Shown in pieces: positions 6,640 to 62,842 of a stretch of 64,000 nucleotides of DNA. The notes beneath the pieces were generated by a model. That model worked only from the letters and a program-made list of their open reading frames with translations. It made no database searches and was not told the DNA's origin. This DNA is from Paramacrobiotus metropolitanus (Eukaryota; Tardigrada; Eutardigrada; Parachela; Macrobiotidae). The number at the start of each line of letters is the position of its first letter. The stretch's first letter is position 1. The position numbers and the translations under genes were made by a program. Location: assembly GCF_019649055.1 (NCBI RefSeq), contig NW_026570227.1, forward strand, positions 558,001 through 622,000. The letters run 5' to 3'.

Positions 6640-6890
6640 TTTCGCGCGAAGCCAACGCGCATTTTTGCAAGAAAATCGCTAGAAATTCTATAATAATTAG
6701 TACGCGTCAGAAAGCATTGCTCGGCTCGCTCGTGACCTATGATTGCCGCTCGCTCGCCCATCGATAAACGACCGCTCGGCTCGACTCTGCTTGCGCCAGT
6801 AGCGGTAAAAGCTCGTTCATTTGGCTATAGCGAGCCGCGAGCGCTCACAAGCCGAGCCGAGGCTCGGCGCTCGCGCACGGCTCTAAATTC
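6640..6890 (-). repeat. GAGC-rich dispersed repeat, inverted partial copy of the 63-kb element
   Basis: Runs of GAGCGAGC/GCTCGCTC, the words GCGCGAAGCCAACGCGCATT and CATCGATAAACGACCGCTCG, and a terminal GCGCACGGCTCTA match the element at 63252-63861 in reverse orientation. This copy lacks a matching second terminus. Confidence 0.7.
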
Positions 6891-40813: not shown

Positions 40814-40819
40814 GTTATC
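40814..40819. other. Left target-site duplication GTTATC
   Basis: Identical to 62837-62842 on the far side of the element; six bases, as expected for Polinton integrase. Confidence 0.9.
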
Positions 40820-40940
40820 AGAAGAAAACGGACCTTATATAAACACAAAATGGCGACGGCTTACGTCATAAACTGGAGTTGGGAGCTGGACTTTCTAGTT
40901 ACAATTCCCGGTTGCACTTTATAACTACAGCTCCCAACTC
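40820..40940 (+). repeat. Left terminal inverted repeat of the Maverick
   Basis: Pairs with 62716-62836 in reverse complement with few mismatches. Within it, GGAGTTGGGAGCTG (40875-40888) and its exact complement (40928-40941) form an internal inverted repeat with a ~39-nt loop. It also carries TATATAAA (40836-40843). Confidence 0.92.
40836..40843 (+). promoter_or_regulatory. TATA-box-like octamer in left TIR
   Basis: TATATAAA pointing into the element, about 340 bp upstream of the plus-strand membrane-protein ORF. A consensus TATA box by sequence; use as a promoter is inferred from its duplication in the other TIR. Confidence 0.4.
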
Positions 40941-41177
40941 CCACACATGAGTCATCACAACTGTACACTGTATATATTTCATACGTGTATGAAACACGCT
41001 ACATATGCAATACTAACATCCGCACACAATTCGATGATATTATCATTAGACAAAATTTTAATTTTTGATTGTATTATATAATCGGTTGTCTGGATTGTGT
41101 TTTCACTTTAAAGTAAGTATTAAAGGCACGAAATCATAATAAATCACCATACATAAGCAAGAAAATATACTATCAAA

Positions 41178-41402: not shown

Positions 41403-44400
41403 ATATGTAAGTCGAAACCGTTTATTTATTTCTTTTGCGGAAACCTCCAATTTACGCTTATTCCGCGTAATGTTAAACGGATAGTTCACGGTTACATCAT
41501 TTGGCTGGTCTTGCGGTGCCAGGCTTTCTAATAGCATTTCCTTCAGGCTTTCGAGGTTCAACTGTTTCCTGGCTTTCCTTGTTAAGGTAAAGCCCTTGAC
41601 CTTTATCGTTTCACTGCCAGTGTTGGTGCGGTACGCGTAGCTTTTAGGCCCTGAAAAGAATGAAGTATAAATACTTATAAGCTGCACCGTAAAACAGCTT
41701 AACGTAGATCCGAATGTACCGAGTGCAACAAATTCGTTGATGTGCTCATTAGGCTCCAAGGACGATGACAAATCTCCTAAACATGTCCCCACTGGCGGAT
41801 CAGGCAAGTCATCAGTGTGAATATAAAAGATACTGTCTGCAAAGTGCACAGATAGAATTACAATACGAAAGACAGTTTCTTGAAATTCAGTACTTGCCAG
41901 TATCATGATATAACAAGCGGTCTCCAACCATTTCCATAAACTTCAGCAAGTGCAACCGCGCATATGCTGTTGTGAATGCCGCAATGACAACATTTGTCTT
42001 TTTGCTTGTTGGGATGTAATCTTTTTTAGAACGGTATTGAACAGCCATAACTTCATCAGTCACCAAGTCGAATCCGGCAACTTCGTATTTATTGGAAAAC
42101 AAATAATCATGGAAAATCTCTTTCTTTTCAACAAATGCGGTGTTGGATCTGTCCTCCTGCTGGCCGAACTTACCCCTGTAAAAAGACTCAGAATTAAAAC
42201 TGCTTGTTGCCAATCGAAGTAATACTCTTTACCAAAAACTATTCAGCATAAGTTTGGACAACGCTCTTAGCCCATCGTTCTTCGCAATGTTGTTTTTATC
42301 CAATAAAATATTTTCTTTAATAAGAAACTCTTCAATAATATATCTGTCTTTGTCTTCCTCTGTTCGACAGTTCGGTGGATAGCCTGATGCCTCTGTTTTA
42401 AGCTTCAAAAACAGATCTATGTATTCTCTGAATAAATATTGCATCTGCTCTGGATAATGCCAAACAGAGTAAATCTTTTCAATGCGGTAGCCAGCTTCTA
42501 TCGCGCGGTGAATTTCTGGTGTACACCACGTTCCTTCCAAAGCCCTGTCATCATCTTCATGGCAGCACGGTGTGTTCACGCGCTCCTGTACGCATTTGGC
42601 ACATAACGGAAATGTAAGCTTGTCGGTTCTGTACGGCAGTACAGGGAGAAATAATGACGGTGGTGGAATGATACGGCATTTCATCACTCCGAATATGCTT
42701 TCCACAGGCGGGAAGTCCTTTGTGATGATGACAGGAGCTCCCACTGGATAAGGCAGATTTTTATTGATGTAGGGGTACTCACTAATAACGTCGAGGGAAT
42801 AGATTTTTCGCCTGGCGCACATTTGTGGTACAGTTTGATAGCGTTTGTTCGGCCACCGGTGAATGCATCTCGTGGGTGCATAGGCTCTTCAATGTTTGCT
42901 AACTCGATGACTTGTTTGAATTCCATGTCTGCTGCTAGGCGCGCATCGTATTCGTGCTCCCAGATTGAAACAAGAGCGTAACCCATAGCTTTTATTGCGT
43001 CAAGGCGTGAGTCAGTTGCTTTGTTGATTTCTTCCATGGGGCGATTAAGAAATGGATGCAGTGTACTTTTTGTCGTGCAGTCGCTGCAACCGTGCCACAT
43101 ACACCCTTAAAAGAACAAACACAATTATATCAAAACTTTCTGTATTTGCTAAAATTCGTTGTTTATCTAATTTACCTAGAAACTCATAAACGGTTTTATT
43201 CCTTGGGTCAAAACCATCTACTGTCCAAGGGCCGATTCGAACCTCGCGCTGGAGTTGTATATCGTTGTCCATTTCAATCCATCGGAGCCAACGATCTCCT
43301 TTGGCAGAAGATTTTTTACCTTGTCCAGGGGGACCAATCAGCGCAATTTGGTTTTCTTTAACATCCGCGCTCTCCAAAAATAATTACACATTCCAGGGGT
43401 GGTAAGGCCTGAAGCAAATGGACACAATCCATTCGTCACTTGTTGGAAGAGCGTTCGAAACTTCTCACATGCTTGTTGGAGAACAAGAACATCTTGCGAG
43501 CAATATCTATAACAGAGCTAAATAAATACGGCGGCCAGAGTAAATGACATATTTTACCTACCCAATAAAGTGAGCATTAAAGTCAAATTGATTGTTGTGA
43601 CGGCGTCGCTCTTTACGGAACCACTTTATAAAACGTTTACGCTCTTTCTTTTTCATGAGCTGGTAACCGTAATCGTGTCGATCTGGCCATGGAAGAATTT
43701 TGTTCCAATTTTCTGGCTGATTAAGTTTGTGAGGAAAGTCTCCTTTGGTTTCTTGCAAACCGAATGCTTTGGCAAAATTTTTGAGCGATGACGGCACATA
43801 ATTCATAGAGTCACGGAATTTTATTTTAAGTTTTGAAATATCCATCTGCACAACCTTGCTCCCGTTAAAGATCAATGGGTGTGGAATGATTCCGTTCTTA
43901 ATTAGATAGTTTAGCAGAAAATACCCGTCAAATCCCTAAAAAGTAAGTTTTTGTCAACAAAAGCTTATGATTGCTTATGAAGTTTTGACATTGTTTACCT
44001 TCAAGTTGTGTGCAATAAAGGTGTACCCACGAAAGCGTTCGCTAAAGATGAATTCCCCCAAAGCACTTGAAATATCACCGCTAATATTTCCATCTTCCGG
44101 AAGGACAAATTTCTCGTCTTTTGTTGCTATGACCGCTAAATTCACTTTGAAATCACCTGCCTCATCTTGAAACGTTTCAAGATCAAAGTACGCTAGCTTA
44201 TCGTTTAGGTGTTTAGCCTTTTCTTTGTCTGTGAGCTCAATGGGTTGCATGTAGCAGACATGATTATCTTCGGGCATGAAGAACAATGAGCACGTTGGGC
44301 AAAAGACTTCACCACACCGATGTTGTTGGTCATCTATATCCAGTTCAATATCATCGTTTTCATTGTCGCTATCCTTGTCGCCGTCATCGTAAAGCGGATA

Positions 44401-45782: not shown

Positions 45783-46516
45783 TCATGCACTAGAAATTCT
45801 TGGCATGCTAATATCCGCGTGAGTACTTTCTTCACTGCAATCGGTATCGGTGGGAAATACAGCACCACAGCGGATGCAACGTCTGTTACCTCGGTCATCT
45901 GCAATAACATAGAGCTTGTTAAAATTTTTTTTTTTAAAAGCGCGGAAACATTTCATTGCATACCCCAGTAAGCATTCTGATCTGATCTTGAGTTGCGGCA
46001 GCGTCGTTGCCGTCGAACGTGAACTTTTACTTCTGGAATCGGCATACGGCAAAGCAGGCATTTCGTACGACTTTTTAAATGGTGGTCCAGCATCCAGTTA
46101 GAGTAAGCTTGAGCTTTATTAGGACTGTAACACTTGTCCTTGCTTAGATCGGCAAAACGCGGACAGCCCAGTGTATCAAGATTAATGACATCAGATTTAA
46201 TCAGCTTTTGAAGAATAAGACACTTTTGCCCCCCTTTTGCATAGAAAACGACATCGGCAGGATCGTCAACGTAGCGAAGATAATTTTTAAACGCTCGTTC
46301 GATTTGGTGTTCTAACTCTGAGAAAGCTTTATCGAACACAGCATCAATATCCGAAGAACAAACGCCATATTTATTCACAATGTAATTGCTTGGCGCTAAC
46401 GCAAATGTGGTATAATAAAGGCAATAAAATTCGACCGAGCTTATTGCAAGTGACGTAATAATTGGCTTCCCGTTAAGCGCATACCACTTAATGTCTACAA
46501 CAATATGGTAAACCAT
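45783..46516 (-). CDS. Exonuclease-like Maverick protein with C-terminal zinc finger
   Basis: Two exons: 46516-45964 and 45898-45783, joined by a 65-bp GT-AG intron with matching phase. I start at ATG 46516 (MVYHIVVDIKWYALNGK) because this aligns with the start of its plus-strand paralogue at 52804; the frame is open further upstream to 46624. Blocks shared with the paralogue are DIKWY, VVFYAKGGQKCLIL, VINLDTLGCPRFADL and AQAYSNWM. The N-terminal D-x-(D/K)-W block followed by a distal D resembles RNase H/DEDD-type exonuclease families, but I cannot confirm catalytic residues. The C-terminus adds CLLCRMPIPEVKVHV and RCIRCGAVFPTDTDC, likely zinc-binding. It lies directly upstream of polB on the same strand, suggesting a replication role. 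Confidence 0.6.
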
Positions 46517-46735
46517 TTTTGGACCTAATGCTTTAGAAATCGTTAATTTCCGCTGGCGTAATGAGATGAAAAAGCTGTTGCATCTGAAAATTGTCCACTG
46601 ACTGGGGTATTTTATGTGCATCAAAACGGATGCAGCGCAACGTCACGCTGGACCGCAAAATATTTTGGTGCACAACAAATTATTTTTAATCACATACAAA
46701 CAGAACGTGAAAAATCTGGCGTTGATGACGTGACT

Positions 46736-47275
46736 TTATTGTGTTATCTGGCGGAAAACAGACTGAATAAGCAAAGAGTTATCACGGACAACAGTCTTTA
46801 AATTAAAATAATAATTAACATAAGCACAAACCATTCGATCATTCGAAGCTTTGCTATTGGTAAATAAATGAATAAGAGAAGTAAATGACTCGCCGGAGCA
46901 TCGTTTTAGAATAAAAAAGCAGCAATACTGTCCGCATACGGTACTCCACTCCATTTGTAAACGATGCGCTTGTGAAATAACCATGCCCGCGTTCTTGCAA
47001 AAAGTTTCAATGTAGTGGCCGTAATAATGCGGTTCATGACCGTAAGAGTCAAAATATTCCAGCTGTCCTGGTATAGCCTGGTAGAACGCCAGCCAATGCG
47101 AGCCAGGTTTCGCAGCTTCGTCAGTATTGACAACGCATGCCCATGGTAGCTTGGCTGGCAGCGACGATGGTAGCATATCGGCAGCGAATACACCAATAAA
47201 AGCGTCTCTCGTCACGGTATTTGAACGTAGCACGTGATCAATCTCAGCAGTGTCCATTGTAGTGCCGATCTGCAT
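46736..47275 (-). CDS. Adenain-like cysteine protease
   Basis: 179 codons, uninterrupted, close to the usual length. Family marks are GSHWLAFY (His60), QLEYFDSYG (Asp76) and VCGQYCCFFI (Cys118), which correspond to the His-Asp/Glu-Cys triad of adenovirus-type maturation proteases; Gln107 is a candidate oxyanion residue. In related viruses this enzyme cleaves capsid and core precursors during virion maturation. It lies between the major capsid gene and the exonuclease-like gene on the same strand. The ATG at 47275 is the first in frame. It is one of the intact genes of this copy, which is notable beside the broken capsid gene. Confidence 0.88.
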   Translation of the reverse strand: MQIGTTMDTAEIDHVLRSNTVTRDAFIGVFAADMLPSSLPAKLPWACVVNTDEAAKPGSHWLAFYQAIPGQLEYFDSYGHEPHYYGHYIETFCKNAGMVISQAHRLQMEWSTVCGQYCCFFILKRCSGESFTSLIHLFTNSKASNDRMVCAYVNYYFNLKTVVRDNSLLIQSVFRQITQ

Positions 47276-47498: not shown

Positions 47499-48825
47499 TT
47501 AAGCCGTAAAATCCGCAATGAGCTGGCGATGTGAGTTGACTTCAATTATATTATCCCACACCATCATCGTAATGGCCATAATTGGTTCAGTTAATTGGGC
47601 GGCGAACTGCAGGCGGATTGATAGATTTCCTTGGCGTACGGTGCTCATCGGTCCCCGGCCTGTCCGTGAAGGTGTCAGATCGAATCCCCAAATAGCAAAT
47701 CCTTCCGCAAATGCTTTACGGTCGAAAGGCAGCGCCCCGTCCGGTGCGTGCAAGCGGCCAAGCGTCTCCAAAAGACCGTCATATGATTGCAAATAATCAC
47801 CCGTTGCGAAATTTGGTCGGTAGGCTTGTGCGGGATACGACTGTCCGTCGACTTCGACACTTATATAGTTGAGATTGAAATGTTCAAAGTTAAACGGATT
47901 ACCTCGGCGCAGCCCGTGAAAACTCGAGCTTTTTACGAATCCCACAAAAACACATTTGGGTACTGCTCCAATATGTAAATTAGCCAGCACTGTGCTCTGA
48001 ATCATACCAATATCATTAACACGCATACACACTCGCTCAATAGGGTATTTCACAGTCTTTGTCGATAATTGGGCAGTAAGCGCAGACAAATATGCCGGAT
48101 TAGGAACAAAGCGTTTGACGTACAGCCGCGGATTGCGAATGTATGCTTTAAAAGTATCCACTGGAAGATTGGCGTATGAACGCAGGTAGAATTCCGGCTT
48201 ATTCAAAATGAGGCGCACATGTAGCGGTACACCGGTGATCAAATTTTATCCCTGCTGGAAAATGTCCGTACATAATTTGGCGCTGAATGGGACGTACTCG
48301 TTGGTCACAAACATGGCTTTCCGCGTTACTTCTCCAGCGTTATTGGCATGATCTTACCCGGGAGTGTCTATATAAAATCCAGCACTTGTTGCCTGGCTTT
48401 TTAGGGCAGCCGGTGTGTACCCCAACAAATTTTCCAAATACGCTCGGTAGGCATATAATGGGGTGGAATTAGTTATCAGGCGGTTGGCCATTGTTACCTC
48501 TACCGAGCTGAATATAGAATGCGCTATTAGGTTCACTGGTGCAACCAGATCCGTGTTTTCAATATGCGTAGCCGCACCAAGTCCTGCAATTTGCTTTTGA
48601 TTGCAATATCCATTTCTAGCGTAATTTCCGTTAGCACTAGCAGCGCCGACGTTGAAGGGGAATGTAAAAAGAAATTTCTCCAGAACTAATTTCTTCTGTT
48701 TGCCCTGATGTTGGTAGAATGCGTTCTTCTTCTGTCCGCACAAAATCCGCTAGAGTGGCCGGAACGGAGAATAAATCCGACTCGACCTGCATAGCTGGCA
48801 CGCTTCCTTCCAAAATAAAAGCCAT
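47499..48825 (-). pseudogene. Major capsid protein (double jelly-roll type)
   Basis: Starts MAFILEGSVPAMQVESDLFS at 48825, two bases past the end of the upstream gene. The middle block has LVAPVNLIAHSIFSSVEVTM and YAYRAYLENLLGY. The C-terminal block has NPFNFEHFNLNYISVEVDGQ, then EGFAIWGFDLTPS, and ends at 47499. This is the Polinton hexon-like capsid order. Breaks: a frameshift near 48650, and two in-frame TAA codons (48356-48354 and 48248-48246) inside an otherwise continuous conserved frame. The flanking sequence keeps family resemblance across both stops, so they are nonsense changes rather than intron ends, although GTAAGAT at the first resembles a donor. In intact elements the protein builds the icosahedral shell. 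Confidence 0.85.
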
Positions 48826-48826
48826 T

Positions 48827-49195
48827 TTAAAATGCGTCCTCAAATTCTCTTGGGGGAATCCGTTTAAGCCGTTTAAGTCGGAAGGAAGGTTTCTTTATCT
48901 TTTTTGTTATTTTTTGCTGCTGCTTGAGCCGTTTGATGCCTCCTTGCTGTTGAGGTTGCGCAGTTAACGCTTCCGAAATTTTCTCTCCTACCTTCTTGGA
49001 TGTTTCACTAAGAACTGTTGTCGCTGCGTCGCGTAAGTGGGGCTTTGCTGCTTCCATTGCTGCTCTGGCATGTGGTGCCGCTGCTTTAATAACCGGGGCA
49101 GCAAAATGCGCTAATTTACTAAACATTGCGCGCAGAAAATTAGGTAGCATAAATCCGCTGCCATTTTGCATTAAACTCCCGCGATAGCGTGTCAT
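48827..49195 (-). CDS. Small basic virion-type protein
   Basis: 122 codons: MTRYRGSLMQNGSGFMLPNF, an Ala-rich amphipathic helical middle (HAAPVIKAAAPHARAAMEAA-like composition), then a strongly basic tail (KKIKKPSFRLKRLKRIPP). Position immediately before the capsid gene, small size, amphipathic helix and basic tail match the minor core/membrane-active proteins that Polintons and adenoviruses place here. Intact. Its stop and the capsid start are separated by a single base, so translation coupling or a shared message is likely. Exact homology to pVI or pX is not established. Confidence 0.6.
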   Translation of the reverse strand: MTRYRGSLMQNGSGFMLPNFLRAMFSKLAHFAAPVIKAAAPHARAAMEAAKPHLRDAATTVLSETSKKVGEKISEALTAQPQQQGGIKRLKQQQKITKKIKKPSFRLKRLKRIPPREFEDAF

Positions 49196-49296
49196 GACGG
49201 CTCCATAGCCGTGCTGGCTACTAGCGCCCGTGGCGGCCCCGCAAATAAATCCAGATAGAACGATGGTGACGGCTCAAAGAGGATTACGGGCATTTT

Positions 49297-50235
49297 TTAG
49301 CGATAGTAATACTGAATGGGGCGGAAATGCAGCTTTACCATTGACTTTCCAGTCTGAAAAATTGCCGCTTCTCCGAGATCAGTTGTAATGTTGATATCAA
49401 TAGTGTCCAGTCGATCGTATAAAACAGGTAAATAATGTGGATCCTCAAACCTTTCCGAAACAATTTCGAAGCGAGGAACACTTGCTTTAATGGGGAAAGC
49501 GCGCAAAAGCTGCATAGTTTCATCGCCCACAATATTGTAGTCGCACTTGTTGCAGTAGACAAAAATTGATTGGTTCCCAATGTGCATATTCACGGGCTTA
49601 TCTGCTGTCATTGTTATAGACGTCTCCAACAACTGCAACTCTGCCAAGGCTTTCAGCTGGTCGGACAGTGTTGTAGCTGCGGAAGCAAAATTCGTTTTTT
49701 CCATCAAAAAATTTTCATATTGTTCAGACTGTGCAGCAGAAAATCGTCGTTCTTTAAATCCAAGCATACGGGATAGATGCAAAGATGAGGGAGGAAAATC
49801 CAGAAAAACACGTACGCTGGGAAATTTCACTTTGAGCTTGGGCTCGGTTGCTACTAATTCTAATTGAAAAGCCTGTTCTTCCGCTGTAGAATCGCGAAAT
49901 GGCTTTAACCGTGGTACGTTATTGTTGATAAAATTAATGATGTCACTTTTCTCATAGATCCCTGCAGGTACCGTAATTGTGTCCCGGTCCATAGCGAAAA
50001 CACCGTTGCTATCCATAGAAGTAATTTGGTCAACGTGCAACGTTTGGGAACTGGGTAAATTGTACATTGAATTAGGATACTGTATTTCCACCAATGCCAT
50101 TTCCCATTGTCCCGGTAGGGATATCACGCTCTTTAACTTTGTGCTCCATTCAGCTGCATTATTCTTTGGGAACTGTTGCATACAGGCATCAGATGGAAGC
50201 GTGACATAAAAGCTATTAAGAGCCATTTCTGACAC
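49297..50235 (-). CDS. Minor capsid (penton-like) protein
   Basis: 312 codons, uninterrupted. MALNSFYVTLPSDACMQQFP at the start and WEMALVEIQYPNSMYNLPS soon after are characteristic of the Polinton minor capsid protein, the predicted single jelly-roll pentamer at the vertices. The C-terminus has IFQTGKSMVKLHFRP. The first 19 bases overlap the end of the integrase gene upstream (integrase stop at 50217). Two ATGs are available (50235 and three codons later); the second matches the usual MALNS start. Intact reading frame in contrast to the major capsid gene. Confidence 0.85.
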   Translation of the reverse strand: MSEMALNSFYVTLPSDACMQQFPKNNAAEWSTKLKSVISLPGQWEMALVEIQYPNSMYNLPSSQTLHVDQITSMDSNGVFAMDRDTITVPAGIYEKSDIINFINNNVPRLKPFRDSTAEEQAFQLELVATEPKLKVKFPSVRVFLDFPPSSLHLSRMLGFKERRFSAAQSEQYENFLMEKTNFASAATTLSDQLKALAELQLLETSITMTADKPVNMHIGNQSIFVYCNKCDYNIVGDETMQLLRAFPIKASVPRFEIVSERFEDPHYLPVLYDRLDTIDINITTDLGEAAIFQTGKSMVKLHFRPIQYYYR

Positions 50236-51184
50236 GACTGAGTTCGGCTTCGTAATATTTCCCGCGAATTAAATCCCCGTCTTCATCCAGTAAAACGTAG
50301 AGGGGTTCGGGCTGTTGTGGTAATACTTGTTGTATCTTGTAAATTTCCTCCTTAAATGTTGACTCATATCCTTTTTCAAAAAGTGTTTTGTCGATGGCTA
50401 CTCGTACTGTGTCACCTACGCTGTACTTTGGCTTTTCTGCTTTCCCAATAATAATTCTGCATATAGTCGATTGAATATTTGCAGAGAATTGGACTAGCTA
50501 ACCTCATTAGGCGTGACTTTATGCGAAGAATGAATTGCGTTGTTGTAACTGTTTACCAAATCTCCCAGAACGTCCCAGTACACTTTAGACTGTCGGTGTC
50601 GAAATAATTTCCATATTCGTTTCTTGAGATTGCGTATGCCATTTTCAGCTAAGGATGCTTTGATTGCTTTATTTTCAGAAGAGAACAAAAAACCTTTTGG
50701 GCTGTCAAAAACTCTTAACATCCTTATTGTAAAATTCAAGACCTTTGTCCGTTTGCAATTTAATGGGAGCTCCGAGTTCTGCAAACACCTTTTCCAACCC
50801 AAGTTTTACTTCTAGACCGCTTTTATTCTTTAGTAGTTGACAGCTCACTTTCTTGCTGAAGACGTCGATCACAAACAATATCCAACGGTATCCTTTGTTC
50901 TGCTTCGCATATTTTGACATGTCTGCCAGATCGGCTTGATATTGCTCCGCTAGGTTTGAGACAACTACGGGGTTTCTTTTGAACCTTTTGCGTCGAGATT
51001 TGTGGACTGTATATGGATCCAGATGCTCCAGCTGTTCCCGCGTTTGTTGATAGTTTGGTGCTTGTGGAAAGTGGCTGCGAAACTTTTGAATCCCTGTTAA
51101 GCTGCCCGGGTGCTGCGGGTTCAGATACGCTTGTCGTAGCAGTAGATTGGCCATCGTATTCGTCGTCGCTACTGCTTGATCCAT
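50217..51184 (-). pseudogene. Retroviral-type integrase
   Basis: N-terminal helical region (LLRQAYLNPQHPGSLTGIQK), then the DDE core: QADLADM, IVLFVIDVFSKK-like strand at 50870-50900, LQTDKGLEFYN, and the glutamate in SLAENGI about 35 residues later. A C-terminal SH3/chromo-like tail (KYSVGDTVRVAIDK, LDEDGDLIRGKYYE) ends at 50217. It normally inserts the linear element and makes the 6-bp duplication seen at the ends. Breaks: a one-base frameshift at a T run near 50712, a TAG at 50496-50494, and another shift near 50450. All three catalytic acids are still recognisable. Confidence 0.85.
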
Positions 51185-51256: not shown

Positions 51257-51752
51257 TCATTTGTTATTAATAGTCATCCAGTTGAACTGGGATTTGGTTC
51301 TTGAACCGATGGGACCTTCGATTTGTAAAGTGTTTTCATCAAATACTTCTCGCTTTGCACGCTTGCGTTTTGCCGGGGTGCAGGTGGAATAGGAGGAAAG
51401 CATCTAACATACGATCAGGCATATTAGGGGGTACCCACGGCTTCTTTAATAGTTGTGCTGGAATGGGGGGCACAGATGCTGTAGGCGGAATAACCATTTG
51501 GTCAGGGCCAAACGCCGACTCTTTCAGCGCCAAAAAGCGAGCCAAGTTTCTTGATAACAGTTCCGCTTTCTCCCATTCGCTTAGCGTATTCCGTGAAATT
51601 ATATCTCTCATCAAATCGTCCAGTTTTACAATATCCACAACTTCAGTAGGCTGCTGTTGTAATTGGACATCCGTTACAATACGACCTACCGTGTCACTTG
51701 CAAGTCTTTTCATTTCGCTCGCGGGAACAATATAATGCACTTCCGGTTTCAT
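51257..51752 (-). CDS. Polinton small structural-type gene B
   Basis: Starts MKPEVHYIVPASEMKRLA at 51752; its ATG overlaps the TGA of the preceding gene by four bases (ATGA). A helical middle (WEKAELLSRNLARFLALKE) is followed by a Pro-rich linker (IPPTASVPPIPAQ). The frame listed stops at 51339, but a shifted frame continues with the NLS-like KRKRAKREVFDENTL to a TGA at 51257, so a one-base shift near 51370 is likely. I recognise it as a common Polinton ORF that follows gene A, function unassigned; a DNA-binding or minor virion role is plausible from the basic tail. Confidence 0.55.
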
Positions 51753-52077
51753 TTCAGTAAGGCAGTTCCTAAAACAGCTGCCAATACAGGTAGAACCGCA
51801 GGTAAGAATCCTCCGCGCTGTAATAAAATTTCCCTCTTGCTTCGTAAAGGATATTTTTTGAGGGCAATCAGCTTTAATGGTCGACGCCAACGCTGACACA
51901 CCTTTAGCTGATCGGTGGTAAGAGGCACTGAATTCTTTACCAAATTCAAACAAATTTCTTCAAAACAGCGAAGTTGTCGTTTCGAAATATTTTCCAAAGA
52001 AAACGACGCTGCTTAGGTTTCAGCGATCGCAGGGTAAGGAGAAACGGTGCAAAGTCTTTTAAAATCTGATCACACAT
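51749..52077 (-). pseudogene. Polinton small structural-type gene A
   Basis: Starts ATG 52077, overlapping the ATPase stop by eight bases. The first frame (MCDQILKDFAPFLLTLRSLK) shifts by one near 51995, at a four-A run, into KRQLRCFEEICLNLVKNSVP, KKYPLRSKREILLQRGGFLP and a hydrophobic Ala/Leu tail (AVLPVLAAVLGTALL). The pattern of a helical N-terminus, basic KKR block, GGF and a membrane-like tail is common in Polintons next to the ATPase. Probably a minor virion protein with a membrane-active end. Confidence 0.6.
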
Positions 52078-52769
52078 TCTTGGGCAAGTTTGTCGTTTGT
52101 GGATTGATGTAAATTTTTGTCAACTCTCCCGGTAATACTGCTGAACGAATCCTTAAATAGGCAGGTGTGTCCGGTTTCATATCCAAAATGAGAGGTTGAA
52201 ATGGTTCCTGGCCGATTTCCTCGTAAGCTCCGCTGAGATGTTTTAAACCAGTCTGCCTTTCTAGAATCTTGATTTGGTTCACATCACGATTATTTTTGAA
52301 CAGAATAAGATATTGTGCATTAAGATGCACGTCTCGCATAGCAGACCCTTGTTTATATAGGTTATTGAATAATAAAAATACACAAAGCCGTTTATGGTGT
52401 ACTTTTGAGTGAAGAGTTTAGATAAATGCTCATTTTTCACCAAACCACTTGCCACGTCATCCAGTATCAACAAAATATTTTGTTTACCATCAAAATAATT
52501 TTCATCCTCCACAATTTGTTGAATATTTTTGTCAGTTCAATCCCAGGGACTTTGCGCTGAAGCATTTCGTAGGCTGGCTGCATTTCTCCGTACACCAAAA
52601 TAATTCTTCCAAATGGTTGGTCAAATAATTTATCGCGCTCCATAATTAATTTTGACACATACGTCGTTTTCCCCGAAGTCGTTGGCCCCACAACAAGGAC
52701 TGAAGCGGGTAGTCGGAATCTCAAATCAGCTGTCGTGCGCGGATACCTATTTAAGGAATCCATTTCCAA
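52070..52769 (-). pseudogene. FtsK/A32-type genome-packaging ATPase
   Basis: MDSLNRYPRTTADLRF at the start (ATG 52763 or 52769), then Walker A GPTTSGKT (residues 28-35), Walker B LLILDDV near 52450, and the C-terminal NAQYLILFKNNRD and VLPGELTKIYI blocks. This is the motor that loads DNA into capsids in Polintons and related viruses. Two one-base frameshifts separate the blocks: near 52530 (after ACAAAAATA) and near 52400. Divergent from the plus-strand gene at 52804, with only 34 bp between starts, so the two share a very short promoter region. Confidence 0.87.
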
Positions 52770-52803: not shown

Positions 52804-53262
52804 ATGGAGATTTCAAAGCGGAGGGTTGTCTTGGATATTGATTGGTTTATCGCTGGCTCCCAACGGCTTATAAAACAGCTGGCATTTTGTGATTGCCCAA
52901 CTGGTGTTAGCAGGTGCTACACATTCACCATTCCATCCGACTTTAATCATTACCGCGTTGAATTTAGGAGCCAATCGCGTCACTCACACGGACTTGTCTG
53001 GCATAATCGTGGAGATTATTTATACTTAGACATTGCTAGTGCCATTCAGGATATGCTGGAGCTTATTGGTGAACGACCTGCGCGTTTGACGTTTTTTGCC
53101 AAAGGATTGGAAAAGCAAAAGATTTTGGAAAATTATTTGCCTGAAGTGTTTAATCTTGAAGACATTGGGTGCCCGAAGTTTAAGGAGCTTACTTCATTAC
53201 CACAAACAACGCTTTCAAAAGCGGAGACATTCGCAAATTGGCTGAATGGCGAAAATAACTAA
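52804..53262 (+). CDS. Exonuclease-like Maverick protein, plus-strand paralogue
   Basis: 152 codons: RRVVLDIDWFIAGSQRLIKQ, CYTFTIPSDF, RLTFFAKGLEKQKIL, VFNLEDIGCPKFKEL and AETFANWLNG. Each block has a counterpart in the gene at 45783-46516, so the element holds two diverged members of one family on opposite strands. This one lacks the zinc-finger tail. The D-I-D block followed by a conserved Lys-Gly and a distal Asp suggests an RNase H/DEDD-like fold; catalytic competence is unproven. It ends inside the TBP gene (17-bp overlap in another frame), which suggests a shared transcript. Intact. Confidence 0.6.
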   Translation: MEISKRRVVLDIDWFIAGSQRLIKQLAFCDCPTGVSRCYTFTIPSDFNHYRVEFRSQSRHSHGLVWHNRGDYLYLDIASAIQDMLELIGERPARLTFFAKGLEKQKILENYLPEVFNLEDIGCPKFKELTSLPQTTLSKAETFANWLNGENN

Positions 53263-53773
53263 CGTTGTTGCAACTGCTGACCTTGGCTGCGCAATTGACT
53301 TACCCAGCTTATCCGAACGCGCTCCGCTTTCACATTATGCACCACATAAATTTTCCGGGCTTCTTCTCCGTTCCATTCGTCCTTACAAATCGCACTGCCA
53401 AGTGTACCGCAACGGCAAGATCACAGTTAATGGTGCAAAGTCTATCAGTGATGCTCTCGCGTTATTGGATCACTATTACCGGAAACTGCAAAAATATGGC
53501 TATCAAAAAGCCTCGTTAAAGAATCCACGAATCGTTAACATTGTCGCCACTTTTAATTTTGGGAAATTTCTTAGTTTAGAGAAACTGTACAACTCAATAA
53601 GAGCAAAAGCTGATGCCATGTTTGAACCTGAAATATTTCCGGCCATGCGAGTCCGGCTTCAAGGTTGTACGGCGATGATTTTCCATTCTGGAAAAATTAA
53701 TTTATTAGGTGCAAAAGATGCTATCACTCTTCAAACTGCTGAAAACGAATTGCGCTTGTTATTAGGAAACTAA
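53246..53773 (+). CDS. TATA-binding protein (TBP) homologue in the Maverick
   Basis: 175 codons, nearly exactly a TBP core with no N-terminal extension. Two direct repeats are visible: residues ~4-87 (ITNVVATADLGCAIDL ... VYRNGKITVNGAKS) and ~96-174 (IVNIVATFNFG ... EPEIFPAMRVRL ... AMIFHSGKINLLGAK). These are the TBP saddle repeats. Minor-groove asparagines align at N6 and N98. Of the four DNA-kinking phenylalanines, F36, F131 and F146 are kept and the fourth is Tyr54. TBP nucleates transcription complexes on TATA boxes. Starts ATG 53246 within the end of the upstream gene. The frame is clean and ends TAA. Strong divergence from animal TBP suggests long residence in the element rather than a recent host copy. 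Confidence 0.88.
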   Translation: MAKITNVVATADLGCAIDLPSLSERAPLSHYAPHKFSGLLLRSIRPYKSHCQVYRNGKITVNGAKSISDALALLDHYYRKLQKYGYQKASLKNPRIVNIVATFNFGKFLSLEKLYNSIRAKADAMFEPEIFPAMRVRLQGCTAMIFHSGKINLLGAKDAITLQTAENELRLLLGN

Positions 53774-54394
53774 ATGCAGCAATAAATAAAATTACAAAAA
53801 ACCTATCGCTGCATATTTCTATTACCTGGCATTAAAAAGCAGTAGTGCTTAAGTTAGTAAGAAATGTAAAGAACGTTTATCCTTAAAAGTACATGGTACA
53901 TACTACATAAACGGTGCAATACTGTACAGTATTGCACTGTACAGTATATACAGTGCAATACTGTACAGTGCATTAATCATTAATTATGATAAATAGGGTT
54001 CATTACGAAATGTATTTTTTTGTTATAAAAGCATTGAGCTAATATACAAGCATATAATAATAATTTCTGTAATGTAAAAACTGCGAAATCAGCAAATTAC
54101 GCCATACCGTTGACAAGGTGGAAAAATTCTTTGAGAGGTTCAGGCCAACTTTTTCCACTCGAGCCCTCGTTGCTTGTAGCACCCCTGAAACTATGTACAC
54201 ATAAAACATATACCATGTGTTACAACACAATATGAACTAAAAACATTGGCTTCACTTACTTCGGGTACAAGAAATTCATAAATTCTGCAATTAGCGGAGT
54301 AATCGTTAACAGAATTGTGGCTTTGGCTCCAGTGGAAAAAAATTTGCAGCGACCCTGGCGGACTTTTTCCAGTTGATCTGCACGCACGCATAAG
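53774..54394. other. Right subterminal region of Maverick, left of the LTR insertion
   Basis: No gene. Contains palindromes built on ACTGTACAGT, including a perfect 24-bp palindrome at 53914-53937, and further copies to 53970. The LTR element inserted at its right edge; the region continues at 62075. Confidence 0.6.
53914..53975. repeat. ACTGTACAGT palindrome cluster
   Basis: GTGCAATACTGT and its complement ACAGTATTGCAC abut at 53914-53937; TGTACAGTATATACAGTGCA and ACTGTACAGT follow. Related TGTACAGTA words occur at 62140-62150 and 62390-62400, and CTGTACACTGTATATA near the left TIR. Confidence 0.7.
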
Positions 54395-54770
54395 TGTTAC
54401 ATGTAGACTTTGTTCTGATGCTCGGCTCGCTACTTCTCCCTTGCCCAATGCCTGAATCACTTAGTATGTGCCGATTCTCCTGTAATGCGCTTTCTGATTG
54501 TCAAGGGCGATATGCCCGTTCATGCTGTTATCTGATATACCGTTCCACTTGTTGCTCTGATATACCGCTGTTTTTGTGCTTTTCTGACACAGTCGCCTCG
54601 GATTACAGTCCGATTTCCTTCAATAACAATCCCTGACTCGCATTTGCCGTCTCGTTCGTTGCCGTTAATGCATATTTCCGTAAACACTGCATATTAGACT
54701 ACGAAACCGGCCGGTCTTACACCGCCGTGACCTTTCCTTTTATTTCGCTCTGCCAATTATTCATGTAACA
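54395..54770 (+). repeat. 5' LTR of nested element
   Basis: 376 bp; inverted tips TGTTACATG/CATGTAACA. Confidence 0.92.
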
Positions 54771-56103
54771 AATGGTCCGACGACTGAGAAGTACCTGTCG
54801 GTTACTTCAGCCGTCACTTATTATTTGTATTATTGTTTTCTTTTCTTAATGTGCGATGCTTTAATTCGGCGATACCATCATCCATTCACAGCGGGTGCCG
54901 CTGCCGCTGCCGTTACTACTATCAACTGCGCCACTTCCGAGCAGTGCGGGTTCCAAACACCTGCCAGCCGTAACCAGAAGCTGCGCTCATACGCGCTTTC
55001 CGCTTTAATCATTTGTGATGCCAGTTAACCATGTTCCGTCGCGAGTATCCTTGACAACTGCCATTTTAAAAAAAGGTGGTAACGATAATCCTAAGGGAAC
55101 ATCACCGATGAATTTGTTCTTGCGTCCGTTTTAAATAAATGTCTCTTAAAAAAAAGTGTGCATAAGTTCTGTATTTTTGCAACAGTTGCTACTTTTATTC
55201 TTGGAGATTTATCTTTATAAAAAAAATAAATGTGCATTGCTTCCGATAAATGATGGTTTTGATAATTTGATAAAGGTTCCCGGCTTACTTTGCTGTCGGG
55301 AAAGAGTGGAATCAAAAATGCTTCTGTCGCTTTTGAATCACCGTACGTTTTCTGAATATCTAAACAGTACTGTTTTCGATTTCAAGATCACTGTTTACTG
55401 ATTTTGTTCTGAAACCTGAACTGATTTTGTTCTGGAACCTGAAAGATCATGTGTACCCGTTTCTACTGTCGCTTTGCTGATTTGTTGTTGAAACGTTTCC
55501 ATATTTCGAATTTTCTGATGAACGCTGAATGGGTTAAATTTACGTCGATCTCGCATCAGTGCTTTCGAAAAGCAATCGCTCGATACTGTAATGATCTTTA
55601 CTCAGCAGCATGTGTCAATTACGATATTTCTGTGGGACAATCAAATTATCAGTTCTCTGCTCATGAAAACGATTAATTCGTTAAGAAAACGACTAGCTTC
55701 TTTTTGATGCTTTTGGTGACCTTTGTTTTCGAAAAATAATATGGTTTGCTGTTATCGTTCACCGAATTTCACCTTGATCATATCCAATTTTTCTCGCTGA
55801 GTCAGTCAAAGTTTGCATGCCCTACCCAAAACCTGGGATTGCCAAACCCAAGTGTTGTTTTTAATTGTAGAAATATTTCAGAGGGCAGTACAGATTACAG
55901 GGCTTGTTTAACTGATTGTCGATTCGATAATGATATTCCTTTTCTGACTCTTTTTCTTTCTTGGGACCAACCCTTTATCCAACCTGGTTCAACGTTTCTG
56001 GCCGTTCCCCTTTATTATCAGATTGAATCAGAGTAAACAATTTTGACCAAGCCTTTATTTTGTCATTGCACATATTGAATAATTTGAGGTGAGGTCTTTC
56101 AAA

Positions 56104-56664
56104 ATGAGTAATCAGAACCATACCGAAAATCGCTCCGCTGTGTTGTCACAAAAAGCAGGTCGCAGTGTGACTGAGTCACTTCGGTTACCGATGTCTGAAA
56201 CAAACAGTTTTCGTTGTCGCCGGCACTCAGTTGCCATTATGGAGCATGAGCAGTTTTGTAACGTCAGCTTTGGTGCCACTATCACAGACCTGTCAAAGCC
56301 AGTTACAGTGATTGAAACTTCAGTTCTGCTTTCAACCGTTGATAAAATTAATAAGGTTTTGGACATTTGTGTACTTTGGTTTAACAGAAGTAAAGCACGG
56401 AAACGTAAGCGTCGTCGCGAAACTCGGGCGTGCTTTTACTGTTATAAGGTTGGCCATCTGCAGGCCGTATGTTTTATGAATCCCAATAGCCGTTACTACC
56501 ACCACTTGATAACGCAGGATTCAGGCAAGCACAAGCCAATAGCTCGGAGAATGAGCATACTAGAAACAGTCAGGCATGCGCGAAAGCGTCGCAACCGATC
56601 CGCAGTAGGGATCGGGATTCTGTTACTTGAGCTTCTGGCAAAGGAGCGCAACCTTAGCATGTAA
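56104..56664 (+). CDS. Gag-like protein with CCHC zinc knuckle
   Basis: The frame is open from 56089 (191 codons); I prefer the ATG at 56104 (MSNQNHTENRSAVLSQ). A basic patch RKRKRRR is followed at once by CFYCYKVGHLQAVC, a C-x2-C-x4-H-x4-C zinc knuckle as in retroelement nucleocapsids (C115, C118, H123, C128 counted from 56089). The tail is basic (HARKRRNRS). Lengthwise it is a short Gag; no capsid domain is recognisable. It probably binds the element's RNA. This is the only convincing protein inside the nested LTR element. Confidence 0.55.
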   Translation: MSNQNHTENRSAVLSQKAGRSVTESLRLPMSETNSFRCRRHSVAIMEHEQFCNVSFGATITDLSKPVTVIETSVLLSTVDKINKVLDICVLWFNRSKARKRKRRRETRACFYCYKVGHLQAVCFMNPNSRYYHHLITQDSGKHKPIARRMSILETVRHARKRRNRSAVGIGILLLELLAKERNLSM

Positions 56665-59328
56665 ATAGCTGCTTTAACTTCTGAATACTCAAAATTCAAA
56701 AAAAAACATAATATTATTTTGTAACTGTTAAGTGCGCTTGTTGAATAATAAACATAAACTCCCAAAAAAAATATTTTATCCGTTTGATTTTCTTTTGGTA
56801 CGGATAATGTATGCTGATAAATGTCTCATGCTGAATTCCGCTTCTAAAATAATTTGCCCACTTTCAGATGTTCCGAAAACGGGATTAAGTAAACGATAAA
56901 CATGTTCGTAATTACGGAAACATGACTTACAGTGACATGCAATTCCACTTCTGTTTTCATGTTTATTGGGATTAGCTACCCCATTAGACATTATGGACGT
57001 GGGAAGCAGGGAGGCCGCCAGTCGTTAACAGACTTTATAACCCTGCTTACCCGCAGCACGATGCTGTGGACTGGAATGCGATTTCAGTCAATGCGGTTTG
57101 TCCACAGTATCGAAGACAGGCGGACCGCCGCCGTAGAACATAGTGGAGAAACCGTCTAGGATTCGATTTATTTCGATGCCCTAGAAAGAAGGCGAGCACT
57201 GGTATGGCCGCAGAGTTTTTGAATTTATTCAACACAAAATAGTTGCTGACGCGATTCCGCAGGCGGAAAATGTTTCAGCAACCCAGAAGTGGAGCTTGAT
57301 GCAGCACTTGTAAGCACTGCGAGCCTAAGATGGTTTTGAACATTATTTGAGTGATTAAAACATTTAGAAATGATGCAACATTTTTATAAATCTGCGGGTT
57401 TGAAATGATTTTGTAATCCAAGAAGTCACAAACTTGATGCTGAATTAATAAGATATTGCAAATTGACCGCAGTGAATTTGATTTAATGACAAGGGCAGTA
57501 GCCGGTCAGTGAGAAAGTTGACTGAGTTTTGAGAAAGGCCGCAGTGAATTTTAATTGATGACCAGGGCAGTAGCCGGTCCCAAGATTTGATGAAAAGGGC
57601 ATTAGCCGAACAGGAAAATTGTATGACAAAAGGGCAATAGCCGGTCGAAAAGGACACGAAGTCAATAAATATATTTCCATATTGGTTCTTCAGTTTTTGA
57701 ATTGTGGGCCCATGGTTAAAGTTTAAAATGGAAGCAGCAGTTTCCCGTATTTACCATCTAAAAATTTGTTAACCGATAACGAAAAGAAACGTGTGCATCG
57801 GTTTTAAAAAAGACAATTGATATTGAATTCTGGACTAACTTGTTTTTTGCTCTTCTGTACATATCACATTAGTGGTAATTTGCCGATTTCATATTTAATT
57901 CTACGAACTCTACACATCCGGTTGTCAGCCGTTCGGTAGAGCACTTAAATTACCTCAATACACCACTCTGTTGCGGTTAATAAGTTGTGCTGCTATTGCG
58001 TGCATGCCGGAGTCCGAATAAATCCTTGCTACAGGTGCGTTTGTGCAACAATATTACGGTATAATTATTTACGTATTCAATTGTTTTTAAGTTCCATTTC
58101 TTATTCTTGAAGTGCCGAAATTGTTTATTAAATACGATTCTGTTATCGATGTTTCAAAAAACGAGTTTATTGTTGTACCCATTTATCTAATATTTATCAA
58201 CCATTCACTGTTAGCGCCATCAGTCCACTGGAAGAATGCTTTTATTTAATCCGAAAGCTTAACTACTGCTTAATATCAATTATTCAAAAATGAAGCGTCT
58301 TACAGTAAAAACCCCAAAAAACGATTAAACTGGCGATTGTACGAAAGTTTCATTTTTATGAAAGAAAAGAACGTTAATGTTCAAATTTTCAGCAGAAATT
58401 CTGAAAAAAAATTATACGTTATTGTCTGCCAGAGAAGTATATGTTCGCAAATAAAGTTTTCCAGAATTTAAAACTTGTTGGAAATCAAAACAATTTTTGC
58501 ATGATGACAATGGCAATTTGTACTATACGTATTTATTTTTCAATTAAGTGACGAACTAAGTTTAATTGTTTTCAAAATGGCTCATTGTAAATTTTAGGAC
58601 CCCGCAGACTAAGATTTACATTGATTCAAAAAAAAATTTTTTATTTCGCAAGGATTTCATACTTGACGCTCATAACTGAATGTATTCTGTCTTGGAAAAT
58701 AATATTGCGAATCATAAGAGCTGTGAAAATATCCCCGAAAAGTGAAGCTCAACCTGTTTTCGTTGAAATTATGCAAAATGCCGTAAAATGACAATGGCAT
58801 TCCGTTTACGAAATCACCTTTGTAGTTTGTGTTTGTAAGTGTCATTCCAGGCAAACGCGTTCTTGTAATCCACAAGCTAGCGAAGGCCGACCGGCTCAGT
58901 AAGGCTTGGATCAACGCAATTATGCCAGTACGCTTGATTTCCCTTTCCCGACTGTCCTTTGACCCTAACAAGCTGACACCTTGTTTGACCGATTACCAGC
59001 AACTGTAAATATCCGCACGATGGACGGATACCGTTTGGATTCCACACTTGTTTTCCGACCTCGTCTGTTTACGTTGTTTTGGTACAGCCATGCAAAACTG
59101 GCCCCCTTGGACTACGGAGTATCGTCAATCGAACAGCTCAGTAAAATCGCTTAGCATTAGCTTTATTTTACCGCTCATGTAAAATCAGCCAGCAAATAAA
59201 TTAAAACTTTCTAAAAAAAGGATATATTGCACAATTTTTTTAATATTGTATTTTATTTTGTTTATTCTTCTATTCTGTTTAAATAATTAAAATCAAGTCA
59301 GGTTCTCGCTTGTATTTAGTCAAATTTA
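56665..59328. other. Non-coding interior of nested LTR element
   Basis: No coding frame of note. At 57450-57660 short repeats of GGGCAGTAGCCGGTC and GGGCAATAGCCGGTC recur. A 104-codon minus frame at 58657-58971 has no recognisable domain. Confidence 0.5.
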
Positions 59329-61545
59329 AAATGGTCAATATTAAGTACTAAAATTTTCCAATAAAAAGGATCACTATAATTTTGTCGAAAATTTATCAAA
59401 AATATTGGTCAGGAAATTTCCTCCGTTAGTTGCCAGATTTTAATTCGAATTTTTTAAAAGAAAAGAAACGTTCCCGAAGATAGACCCGGTTCTATCCCCG
59501 GGAACCCAGTTATATTAGGTTCGCTACCTAAAGCTTTAGGTCGCCGATTTTTATCAGTCATTACCGCCTCACAACGAACAGTGCGTGGTCAGATTAAACG
59601 ACCTGCATTACAATCATGGGTATCGCATGGTGTTTGTGTGAATAGACCGAGATCGAAATTTTCTGGGGCAAAATTAGATATTGAAATTTAAAAAAAAAAT
59701 AGTTAACGGATAAGCTGGTGCAGCAGTTTGTTTGCACAGTGTCTACGCGAATGAAGAATCGCTCACATGCTTCGAAATTACCTCAACTAACGCAGTCTAG
59801 AATCGATGTACAAAAACCTGTCTGAAACAGCAATACCATCTGCTGTGAAGTCTCTGCAGAAAACTTGTCCGCAACAGCGAAAAAAAATTTTTGCTGTAAT
59901 GCCTCTGACCAAAACCCGTCAGCAACAGCATTGAAAATTGCTGAGAAAAAAAAACAGAACAGAATTTCGTACGAGATCGCACACGCGCGACTCGATTGCA
60001 GAAGACGAGAAAAAAAATTTTACCAGCCAGACACGAGTTTAGCATCGTAGACTGAATGCACTAAAGCTGCATTAAAAAAAAAGGGGGAAAAGAGGCGTGT
60101 GTTTAGACAAGCGAATGAATAATGTTTGAAACCAGCGACTTAATGTTTATAAATTGTGCTGTGTCGATTTTGCCTCAGGAAATGAAATGTCTGTTTATTT
60201 GCGTGAATACGGTGTGGTGTTATGGTTTTGGTGTACGGTTAACCGCTGATCAAAGTTCAAGTTCAAGAGCGACCGAAAGATATCATCGACTGAACCGCAT
60301 TTATTATAAAATGAGTCAGAGAATTTAAAATCCAAAACATTTATAAAATGAAAATTCGGTTCAATCCGGTTTTCCCTAAAAGCGTTCCAAAAATAAAAAT
60401 TCAGATTATTCCGCTATATTACCTGTATTTCTTCTAACCGTATAAAGTACTTCAATTATAGTACGCGTTTGCGTATAAAGTACTGTATTTAGTTCAATTT
60501 CAAAATGGTCAGGATTAATTACTTCAATTTTCAATAAACAGGATCATTTTATTTTGTAGAAAATTTACCAAAAAACATTGGTCAGGAAATTTCCTTGGTT
60601 ACTTGTCAGATTTTACTTCCAATTTTTAAAACAAAAGGAAAGGTTCGTGAAGATAGACCCGGTTCTATCCCCGGGAACCCAGTTATATTAAATTCACTAC
60701 CTAAAGCCTTATGTCATCGATTTTTATCAGCCATTACAGCCTTGCAATAATCAATGAGTGCTCGTAATAGGTAGCCTGCATTATGGTCATGGTTAACGCA
60801 TTGTATTTTCTGGGGCAAAATTTGAAATTAATTAATTAAAATTTCCTACGAAGATGCTGGTGCAGCAGTTTGTTTGCTAAATGTCGAGGTGAGTATAATT
60901 GCTAAAAATCATCTTAAAAAAACAACGAAGTCCTTAATAAAATAAAAGTGTCTGATCAGCCATCCCGTTGCTGTAGCAATACTTTGGTCATGGGCGCGTA
61001 ACAACTCTAGCTTTCGGCGCATCACTGGTTTACGAGGTGTTGAGCCGTAAGTACGCGACTTGACCGCGAGACATGCTACTAATCTACTCAGACCGATTAA
61101 TAACGCACTCGTCTGTACAAGTACCAGTGTACGAAAAATTCCAACATGGGGAAACGAAGTGGACGCTATGCGCGTGTTATAGACAGGCGAACAAACAGTG
61201 TTTGAAACCAGCGAAATCAGATCATGGAAATGAGCGAATGAATTTTTCGTACAGATTTTGCCTCAGAGAATAGGATTTTCTGTTTAATTTCGTGAATACG
61301 GTGTAGTGTTGTGGTTTTGGTGTATGGTTGACCGCGGATCAAAGTTCAAGTTCAAGTGCGACCGAATGACATCATCGTTAGCACCGCATTTATTATAAAA
61401 ATGAGTCAGGGAATCTAAATCCAAAAACATTTATAAAATGAAAATTCAGTTTAACCCGGGTTTTCCCTAAAAGCGTTACGAAAATAAAATACAAAATATC
61501 TCGCTGTACTACCTATATTTCTTATAATCATATCAAGTATAAATA
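59329..61545 (+). repeat. Tandem duplication of about 1.1 kb inside the nested LTR element
   Basis: Units at about 59329-60455 and 60502-61545 share ATTGGTCAGGAAATTTCCT, GAAGATAGACCCGGTTCTAT, CGTGAATACGGTGT, GATCAAAGTTCAAGTTCAAG and GGTTTTCCCTAAAAGCGTT in the same order, with roughly one change per ten bases and indels. Confidence 0.8.
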
Positions 61546-61698
61546 TTATTCGCATAATAATACCTGTTGTTTCTTGAATGTGTTTTGAAAATTTCTAAAC
61601 GCAAAAATAGCTGCTTTATTGTATTGCTGGTTGACTGGCTTTTCTGCTTCTTTTATATTAGTTATGGACTGCGGACAGTCCTTTTTCATGGAGAGAAG

Positions 61699-62074
61699 TG
61701 TTACATGTAGACTTTGTTCTGATGCTCGGCTCGCTACTTCTCCCTTGCCCAATGCCTGAATCACTTAGTATGTGCCGATTCTCCTGTAATGCGCTTTCTG
61801 ATTGTCAAGGGCGATATGCCCGTTCATGCTGTTATCTGATATACCGTTCCACTTGTTGCTCTGATATACCGCTGTTTTTGTGCTTTTCTGACACAGTCGC
61901 CTCGGATTACAGTCCGATTTCCTTCAATAACAATCCCTGACTCGCATTTGCCGTCTCGTTCGTTGCCGTTAATGCATATTTCCGTAAACACTGCATATTA
62001 GACTACGAAACCGGCCGGTCTTACACCGCCGTGACCTTTCCTTTTATTTCGCTCTGCCAATTATTCATGTAACA
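61699..62074 (+). repeat. 3' LTR of nested element
   Basis: 376 bp, read as identical to 54395-54770; preceded by the purine tract GGAGAGAAG. Confidence 0.92.
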
Positions 62075-62836: not shown

Positions 62837-62842
62837 GTTATC
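62837..62842. other. Right target-site duplication GTTATC
   Basis: Identical to 40814-40819. Confidence 0.9.

Follow-up and report, generated by a model that had tools for sequence, protein, structure and literature searches.

Does a transposable element carry its own general transcription factor into an animal genome? This question is raised by a gene within a 64,000-nucleotide stretch of DNA from the tardigrade Paramacrobiotus metropolitanus (the whole stretch that was analysed, hereafter the window). An earlier note had proposed that a Maverick/Polinton at this place encodes a TATA-binding protein (TBP), by which it may set up its own transcription initiation or capture host RNA polymerase, in competition with host TBP. 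Specifically, the note described an intact 175-codon frame with both TBP saddle repeats, two conserved asparagines and three of the four DNA-kinking phenylalanines, all lying within terminal inverted repeats (TIRs) that are flanked by a 6-bp duplication.

The window gene encodes a TBP

Each of these features is borne out. Direct reading of the forward strand at 53246-53773 gives 175 codons followed by a stop, and the Pfam TBP profile PF00352 aligns to the product in two stretches that correspond to both saddle repeats (E = 3e-36; 123.6 bits against a cut-off of 22.9). The protein also matches 35 TBP sequences of solved structure, the best with E = 9.8e-19. When it is aligned to human TBP, N6 and N98 fall at Asn167 and Asn257, F36, F131 and F146 fall at Phe197, Phe288 and Phe305, and Tyr54 takes the place of Phe214, the single substitution that had been noted before. 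The saddle was also modelled, as had been recommended. The predicted structure has a mean pLDDT of 97.5 and compares with most of the solved eukaryotic TBPs listed at a TM of 0.90-0.92 and with archaeal TBPs at 0.79-0.83. Together, the profile and model confirm that the frame encodes a TBP with a predicted saddle fold. No match for this protein was found in PHROGs, and no relative was found in viral contigs scanned with the TBP alignment and with the L029 ATPase.

The TBP gene resides in a degenerate Maverick

The gene lies inside a degenerate Maverick that spans 40820-62836, has the ends AGAAG...CTTCT and carries GTTATC on both flanks, which agrees with the TIRs and duplication already described (Table 1). 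A retroviral-type integrase is present as well, although its rve match in the window (30.7 bits) is slightly below the cut-off of 32.6; the corresponding match in the relative L021 is above it (E = 3e-11). The degenerate PolB stretches correspond to a type B polymerase of the viral/organellar, presumably protein-primed, family, which in L027 matches PF03175 with E = 7e-35, and the protease is of the adenovirus type (PF00770; 22.6 bits versus a cut-off of 21.3). For the ATPase, the PF04665 match in L029 (E = 4.5e-4; 20.2 bits) is below the cut-off of 22.8. We tentatively take the capsid region to encode MCP on the basis of its size and gene order, and we presume that the adjacent open gene is penton-like. 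The latter has no Pfam match, and no capsid family that would point to a double jelly-roll capsid protein is found among the Pfam matches of the L022 and L028 proteins or among the PHROG matches of L022.

Table 1. Parts of the Maverick that holds the TBP gene, in window coordinates.
Feature	Position	Strand	Basis
Target-site duplication GTTATC, left copy	40814..40819		read directly
Left TIR; TTATATAA starts at element base 16	40820..40989	+	inverted-repeat search and reading
PolB-like stretches, many stops, degenerate; match L027 PolB	42280..43866	-	comparison with L027
Second DnaQ-like paralogue, 222 aa, near PolB end	45953..46621	-	hhalign, blastp
Adenain-like protease, open	46736..47275	-	PF00770, E = 9.4e-5
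Capsid-region frames, in-frame stops and frame changes	47499..49293	-	comparison with relatives
Penton-like protein (presumed), open	49297..50226	-	93% to L015
Integrase, stop and frame changes	50219..51184	-	rve, E = 4e-7
Conserved gene of a 183-aa family, function not named, in two pieces	51260..51752	-	comparison with relatives
A32-like packaging ATPase (putative), frameshifted, three pieces	52073..52763	-	comparison with relatives; weak PF04665 match in a relative
DnaQ/RNase H-like fold protein (predicted), 152 aa; 17-nt overlap with TBP start	52804..53262	+	predicted model of relative L024; comparison
TBP, intact, 175 aa	53246..53773	+	frame, Pfam, structure model, tree
Nested LTR retrotransposon, later insertion, outside the Maverick gene set	54392..61995		identical 300-bp direct repeats
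Right TIR with TATATAA	62668..62836	-	inverted-repeat search and reading
Target-site duplication GTTATC, right copy	62837..62842		read directly

Frameshifts or stops have disrupted four parts of this copy (ATPase, integrase, capsid region and PolB), and the TBP gene, the DnaQ-like gene that overlaps it, the penton-like gene and the protease are still open. Between the TBP gene and the right TIR lies an LTR retrotransposon bounded by its direct repeats at 54392-54691 and 61696-61995. Once this 7.6-kb insertion is discounted, the distance from TBP to the TIR is about 1.5 kb, as it is in L014, a relative that lacks the retrotransposon.

Several other features of these loci were observed. The window element has two paralogous DnaQ-like genes. 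The gene close to PolB matches the family of the gene that overlaps TBP with an hhalign probability of 99.3 and a blastp E of 3e-13. In L021 (4850-9517), the protease, capsid-region, penton-like and integrase genes run head to tail in an operon-like manner, each separated from the next, or overlapping it, by 1-8 nt. To the left of the Maverick, 38384-40140 holds an array of 50-65-bp direct repeats and a pair of inverted arms, each of 39 nt, at 38857 and 39571, and an inverted pair of approximately 240 bp (6644-6885 and 63252-63500; 92-95% complementary) is separated by 56 kb.

TBP genes accompany Maverick ATPase genes at many loci of the genome

Is this TBP gene peculiar to a single decayed element? 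The genome examined (169.8 Mb, 533 contigs) has a host TBP gene on contig C4 that reads as a spliced gene and whose aligned part is 88% identical to human TBP and 83% identical to yeast TBP. Besides this gene, the merged union of three genome searches yields at least 201 TBP loci with the window's included, a count that covers some broken or partial loci and also L044. The locus L044 (G000 C66:348500-350300) holds a very divergent two-repeat TBP-like frame with a branch length of 5.92, and is perhaps a host TBP-like factor.

Among the matches listed, a TBP lies no more than 10 kb away at 123 of 149 Maverick ATPase loci (counted after merging), compared to 17 of 772 shifted control places created by moving the ATPase positions by 60-150 kb. 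One of the remaining 26 listed loci has a TBP at 10-20 kb. Of the ATPase loci without a neighbour in the first two TBP lists, three were inspected, and all three hold a TBP, two in split frames. The value of 123/149 is an underestimate because one of the three, C48, remains scored with the 25 loci that lack a TBP. The proposal of a Maverick that encodes its own TBP is supported, and it holds generally in this genome.

The positions of the two genes relative to each other were surveyed in the first two TBP lists, where 112 of at least 166 TBP loci have an ATPase within 10 kb. The ATPase gene is close, upstream and on the other strand for 32 of the 112; it is 2-10 kb upstream on the same strand for 49, and just downstream on the same strand for 25, with 6 loci arranged otherwise. 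Several Maverick lineages of this genome have TBP as a stable component. In L023, moreover, the DnaQ-like fold protein and TBP are fused.

Sampled element TBPs form a separate clade and diverge with their elements

A tree was made from 64 proteins, of which 23 are sampled element TBPs, 33 come from public genome or metagenome assemblies, and the rest include host, human, yeast and archaeal TBPs and the TBP of the haloarchaeal virus HRTV-9. The element TBPs and the 33 database proteins form one clade (99/91) that is apart from the host, human, yeast and archaeal TBPs. A phylogeny had been proposed; this one, in which long branches are present, covers cellular TBPs and that of HRTV-9, and in it the sampled element TBPs are separate from host TBP. 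Within the clade are two deep parts, one with types A, B and C and the other with types D and E. These letters are labels of the analysis: types A, D and E each form one branch of the tree, L019 lies outside the rest of B, and C is split into two pairs. The type-E TBPs of L036 and L038 (374- and 342-codon frames) extend at the C terminus into a tail in which motifs like EPxxTLTQCxKLVAQ recur.

These findings bear on a simple explanation for TBP frames in Mavericks, namely that they are recent retrocopies of the host gene that lie there by chance. The frames are indeed open and without introns, as retrocopies would be, but the separate clade of sampled element TBPs, the three recurring arrangements in which the neighbours are kept and the linkage to ATPase genes refute this explanation, which we give a negligible chance. 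Likewise, a host retrocopy that related elements lack, which the note had named as a refutation, is excluded, because TBP recurs near ATPase loci (123 of the 149 listed) and the sampled element TBPs do not group with host TBP.

TBP distances between elements follow those of other element genes. The Spearman correlation with integrase distances is 0.76 (12 loci; 0 of 2000 permutations as high) and that with penton-like distances is 0.58 (12 loci; 2 of 2000), with a weaker value of 0.47 for a third gene (7 loci; 35 of 2000). A dN/dS value could be computed for 17 of 19 pairs and is 0-0.31 in these, and the element TBPs are under purifying selection.

For whose benefit is the gene retained? If the TBPs had been exapted, they would be used by the host and not by the element, and the open TBP frame of the window amid its broken ATPase, integrase, capsid and PolB genes can be cited for this possibility. 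However, TBP is not clearly better preserved than its neighbour, since stops occur in 22 of 150 TBP matches and 29 of 150 ATPase matches (among those listed, counted by row), and TBP diverges together with the integrase and penton-like genes. We therefore consider host exaptation to be very improbable.

DNA contacts are retained and TFIIA contacts are nearly absent

Residues were counted in 23 hand-picked element TBPs aligned to human TBP. Contacts to DNA are kept almost throughout, with N257, F288 and F305 present in all 23, F197 in 22 and N167 in 21. Human A184, N189, E191 and R205, which we take to be the TFIIA contact positions, are nearly absent, being found in 4, 0, 3 and 0 of the 23 proteins, respectively.

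At the place of F214, all 17 proteins of lineages A-C have Tyr and all six of D and E have Phe. PMC7221094 states that TATA binding is altered when Tyr replaces the corresponding Phe. The same paper names two glutamates, E284 (C.L3.2) and E286, as contacts to TFIIB, and these are unevenly kept: E286 is present in 20 of 23 element TBPs and E284 in 12 (52%). The loss of E284 is concentrated in type B, where it is replaced in all ten proteins, compared to retention in 12 of 13 elsewhere. Basic positions of the N-lobe, picked from general knowledge and from the description in PMC7221094, are occupied by R or K in 1 (R188), 7 (R235), 5 (K236), 9 (R239) and 8 (K243) of the 23 proteins. By this alignment the basic patch appears thinned, not gone, and some of its residues may never have been present because archaeal TBP also lacks several of them.

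A PC4-like gene is a frequent neighbour of TBP

The genome contains 65 non-host matches to the PC4 profile PF02229, of which 16 are above the Pfam cut-off (one only when a neighbouring stretch is included) and 49 are below. The match of an individual protein is weak (Pfam E = 0.04 in L025), and a profile made from the PC4-like alignment matches three distinct PC4 structure sequences with E values from 6e-4 to 9e-4. These genes lie near TBP: 54 of the 65 are within 10 kb, and all 43 that are within 3 kb are on the opposite strand. A tblastn search with L025 found no PC4-like gene in the window's element.

TFIIB and TFIIS are not amplified. Across the whole genome, PF00382 yields six matches for TFIIB on three contigs, although a very divergent TFIIB could escape this profile, and the genome profile search for TFIIS yields five.

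TATA motifs in element promoters and termini

If element TBPs act at element promoters, are TATA boxes found there? We scanned the 100 nt before the start of the first gene in each TBP unit for TATAWA, whose density in the loci (0.0008 per nt) predicts approximately 0.08 occurrences per 100 nt. The motif precedes nine of nine D/E genes (one of which, L040, is outside the tree), although these represent four or five independent cases because several are near copies. In type B it precedes 2 of 10 genes, and in types A and C it precedes none (four genes each), so promoters in these types may not be TATA-driven. These motifs make a good case for a putative use of TATA boxes in D/E and a weak one in A-C, to which the window element belongs.

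The type-D TBP promoters have an additional feature. In all four (L031 6880-6960, L042, L032 and L043), a TATATAAA or CATATAAA box is enclosed between the arms of an inverted repeat, up to 17 bp long. The repeats score 15, 13, 11 and 11, and the best of 100 plain shuffles for each (arm lengths of 12, 14 and 15 were tried) scores 9 or 10. Their arms differ between two sublineages and remain largely complementary. Such a structure around a TATA box could be an operator.

TATA-like sequences also occur at the termini of elements. Both TIRs of the window element carry TATATAA approximately 16 nt from the end, and among nine other type-A copies the TIRs have TATATAA in one (L002) and TGTATAAAC in six and are unrecognisable in two. 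This location raises the possibility that the TBP is no transcription factor, but serves replication or integration at the termini by bending DNA or recognising the ends. The overlap of TBP with the DnaQ-like fold protein and the fusion of the two in L023 are in keeping with such a role, as is the fact that PC4-like proteins also bind single-stranded DNA. However, TATATAA is missing in 8 of the 11 TIR sequences compared (six of the eight still have TATAAA), the TBP gene itself is preceded by TATA boxes in D/E, and E286, a TFIIB contact that would have no evident use at a terminus, is kept in most of the proteins. On this evidence, a role in end recognition is unlikely.

Alternatively, the TBP might be a competitor that disturbs the transcription of the host or of a co-infecting virus by occupying TATA boxes or by titrating TFIIB. 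A dominant-negative protein might well show the pattern observed, in which contacts to DNA and part of those to TFIIB are kept while those to TFIIA are nearly absent. Use by the element is nevertheless favoured by the place of the gene beside packaging and capsid genes, by its PC4-like neighbour and by the TATA boxes before the TBP gene, and we judge a role as such a competitor to be decidedly unlikely.

A possible route to the host polymerase

On balance, we lean towards a reading in which an element-dedicated TBP recruits host TFIIB and polymerase to the promoters of the element, free of the control exerted on host TBP. The protein would be made from the element itself, and would bind and bend TATA-like sites in element promoters, such as the consensus boxes that precede the TBP gene in two lineages or lie near the ends of the window element. 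It would then place host TFIIB, and hence host RNA polymerase, on these promoters; host TFIIB is proposed because the elements are without any TFIIB that a profile finds. Given that TFIIA contacts are nearly absent and that the basic N-lobe patch (for TFIIA, TAF1, Mot1 and Brf) is thinned, the protein may be largely free from the regulators of host TBP. The result would be a short initiation path of the archaeal TBP-TFIIB style, assisted in many elements by a PC4-like coactivator whose gene lies next to TBP on the opposite strand.

The original idea of self-directed initiation or polymerase capture fits the residue pattern, the unamplified TFIIB and the PC4-like neighbour. The protein might act in competition with host TBP, as that idea had it. 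Taken as a whole, the sequences suggest that the elements steer the host transcription machinery to their own genes. A counterpoint is provided by E284, whose retention in element TBPs is not far above the approximately 40% reported for viral TBPs in PMC7221094, from which that paper judges the use of host TFIIB to be unlikely. Type B, by the same residue, appears to be the poorest fit to a reading based on host TFIIB.

A fuller version of this route, which we offer tentatively and regard as rather doubtful, is that of a reduced promoter path within the animal nucleus. Here the element TBP would ignore TFIIA, TFIID and Mot1 and would mark element TATA sites, including that of its own gene in a feedback loop. 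It would then pass these sites to host TFIIB and polymerase with the PC4-like helper, such that the element would be transcribed in settings that host TBP regulation or silencing would otherwise close to it.

If the favoured reading is true, then elements that are both transposon and virus carry their own general transcription factor at some two hundred loci (at least 201) in one genome. The element TBP would represent a natural TBP whose adapter face is partly kept and whose TFIIA face is nearly gone. Two questions thereby become testable: how integrated Mavericks are transcribed, and how small the TBP interface can be while still supporting initiation by polymerase II in the nucleus of an animal.

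Comparison with known systems

In the open-access literature, a coverage outside which key Polinton papers fall and which thus offers no proof of novelty, we found no earlier description of a TBP in any Polinton, Maverick or virophage. The strings TATA, TFII, transcription and PC4 are absent from the main text of PMC11071308 and PMC10120064, two broad treatments of these viruses, as are TBP and TFII from the main text of two papers on polinton-like viruses.

Cellular TBPs of eukaryotes and archaea (PF00352) share with the element proteins the two-repeat saddle and the Asn and Phe contacts to DNA, whereas the element TBPs differ in their separate clade, in the Tyr at the Phe214 place of types A-C and in their near lack of TFIIA contacts. 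TBPs of large dsDNA viruses (NCLDV such as mimivirids, asfar-like viruses and iridoviruses) have in common with those described here a TBP fold encoded by the element and, according to PMC7221094, contacts to regulators that are not conserved. By the same account, viral TBPs are almost always accompanied by a viral TFIIB, which forms with them an orthogonal TBP-TFIIB system, whereas the PF00382 search detects no element-encoded TFIIB amplified with the Mavericks here. The glutamate contacts may also be compared, with E284 at roughly 40% in the viral proteins of that paper versus 12 of 23 in element TBPs, where E286 reaches 20 of 23. In Foldseek, the window TBP model has a best TM of 0.81 to viral TBPs versus 0.90 to cellular TBPs.

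Mirusviruses (PMC10132985) and mirus-like integrated elements of the alga Cymbomonas (PMC10675990) are each reported to have a TBP, and they likewise exemplify TBP in DNA viruses that are able to sit in host genomes. Mirusviruses are set apart by their HK97-fold capsid, their own RNA polymerase genes and a size much larger than that of the Mavericks here. The haloarchaeal virus HRTV-9 also bears a TBP, which is 30% identical to the window TBP and, on a long branch of the tree, joins Sulfolobus TBP and a database protein of archaeal type.

In Drosophila, the TBP relative TRF2 is reported to act with Moonshiner in the unusual transcription of transposon-rich loci. These are host factors, in contrast to the element genes of this study. 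Finally, the elements have in common with Mavericks/Polintons their TIRs, the duplication of 6 bp, an rve integrase, PolB, a C5 protease and, by a match below the cut-off, a putative A32-like ATPase. To our knowledge, TBP and the PC4-like gene that many of the elements carry are outside the core gene set of this group.
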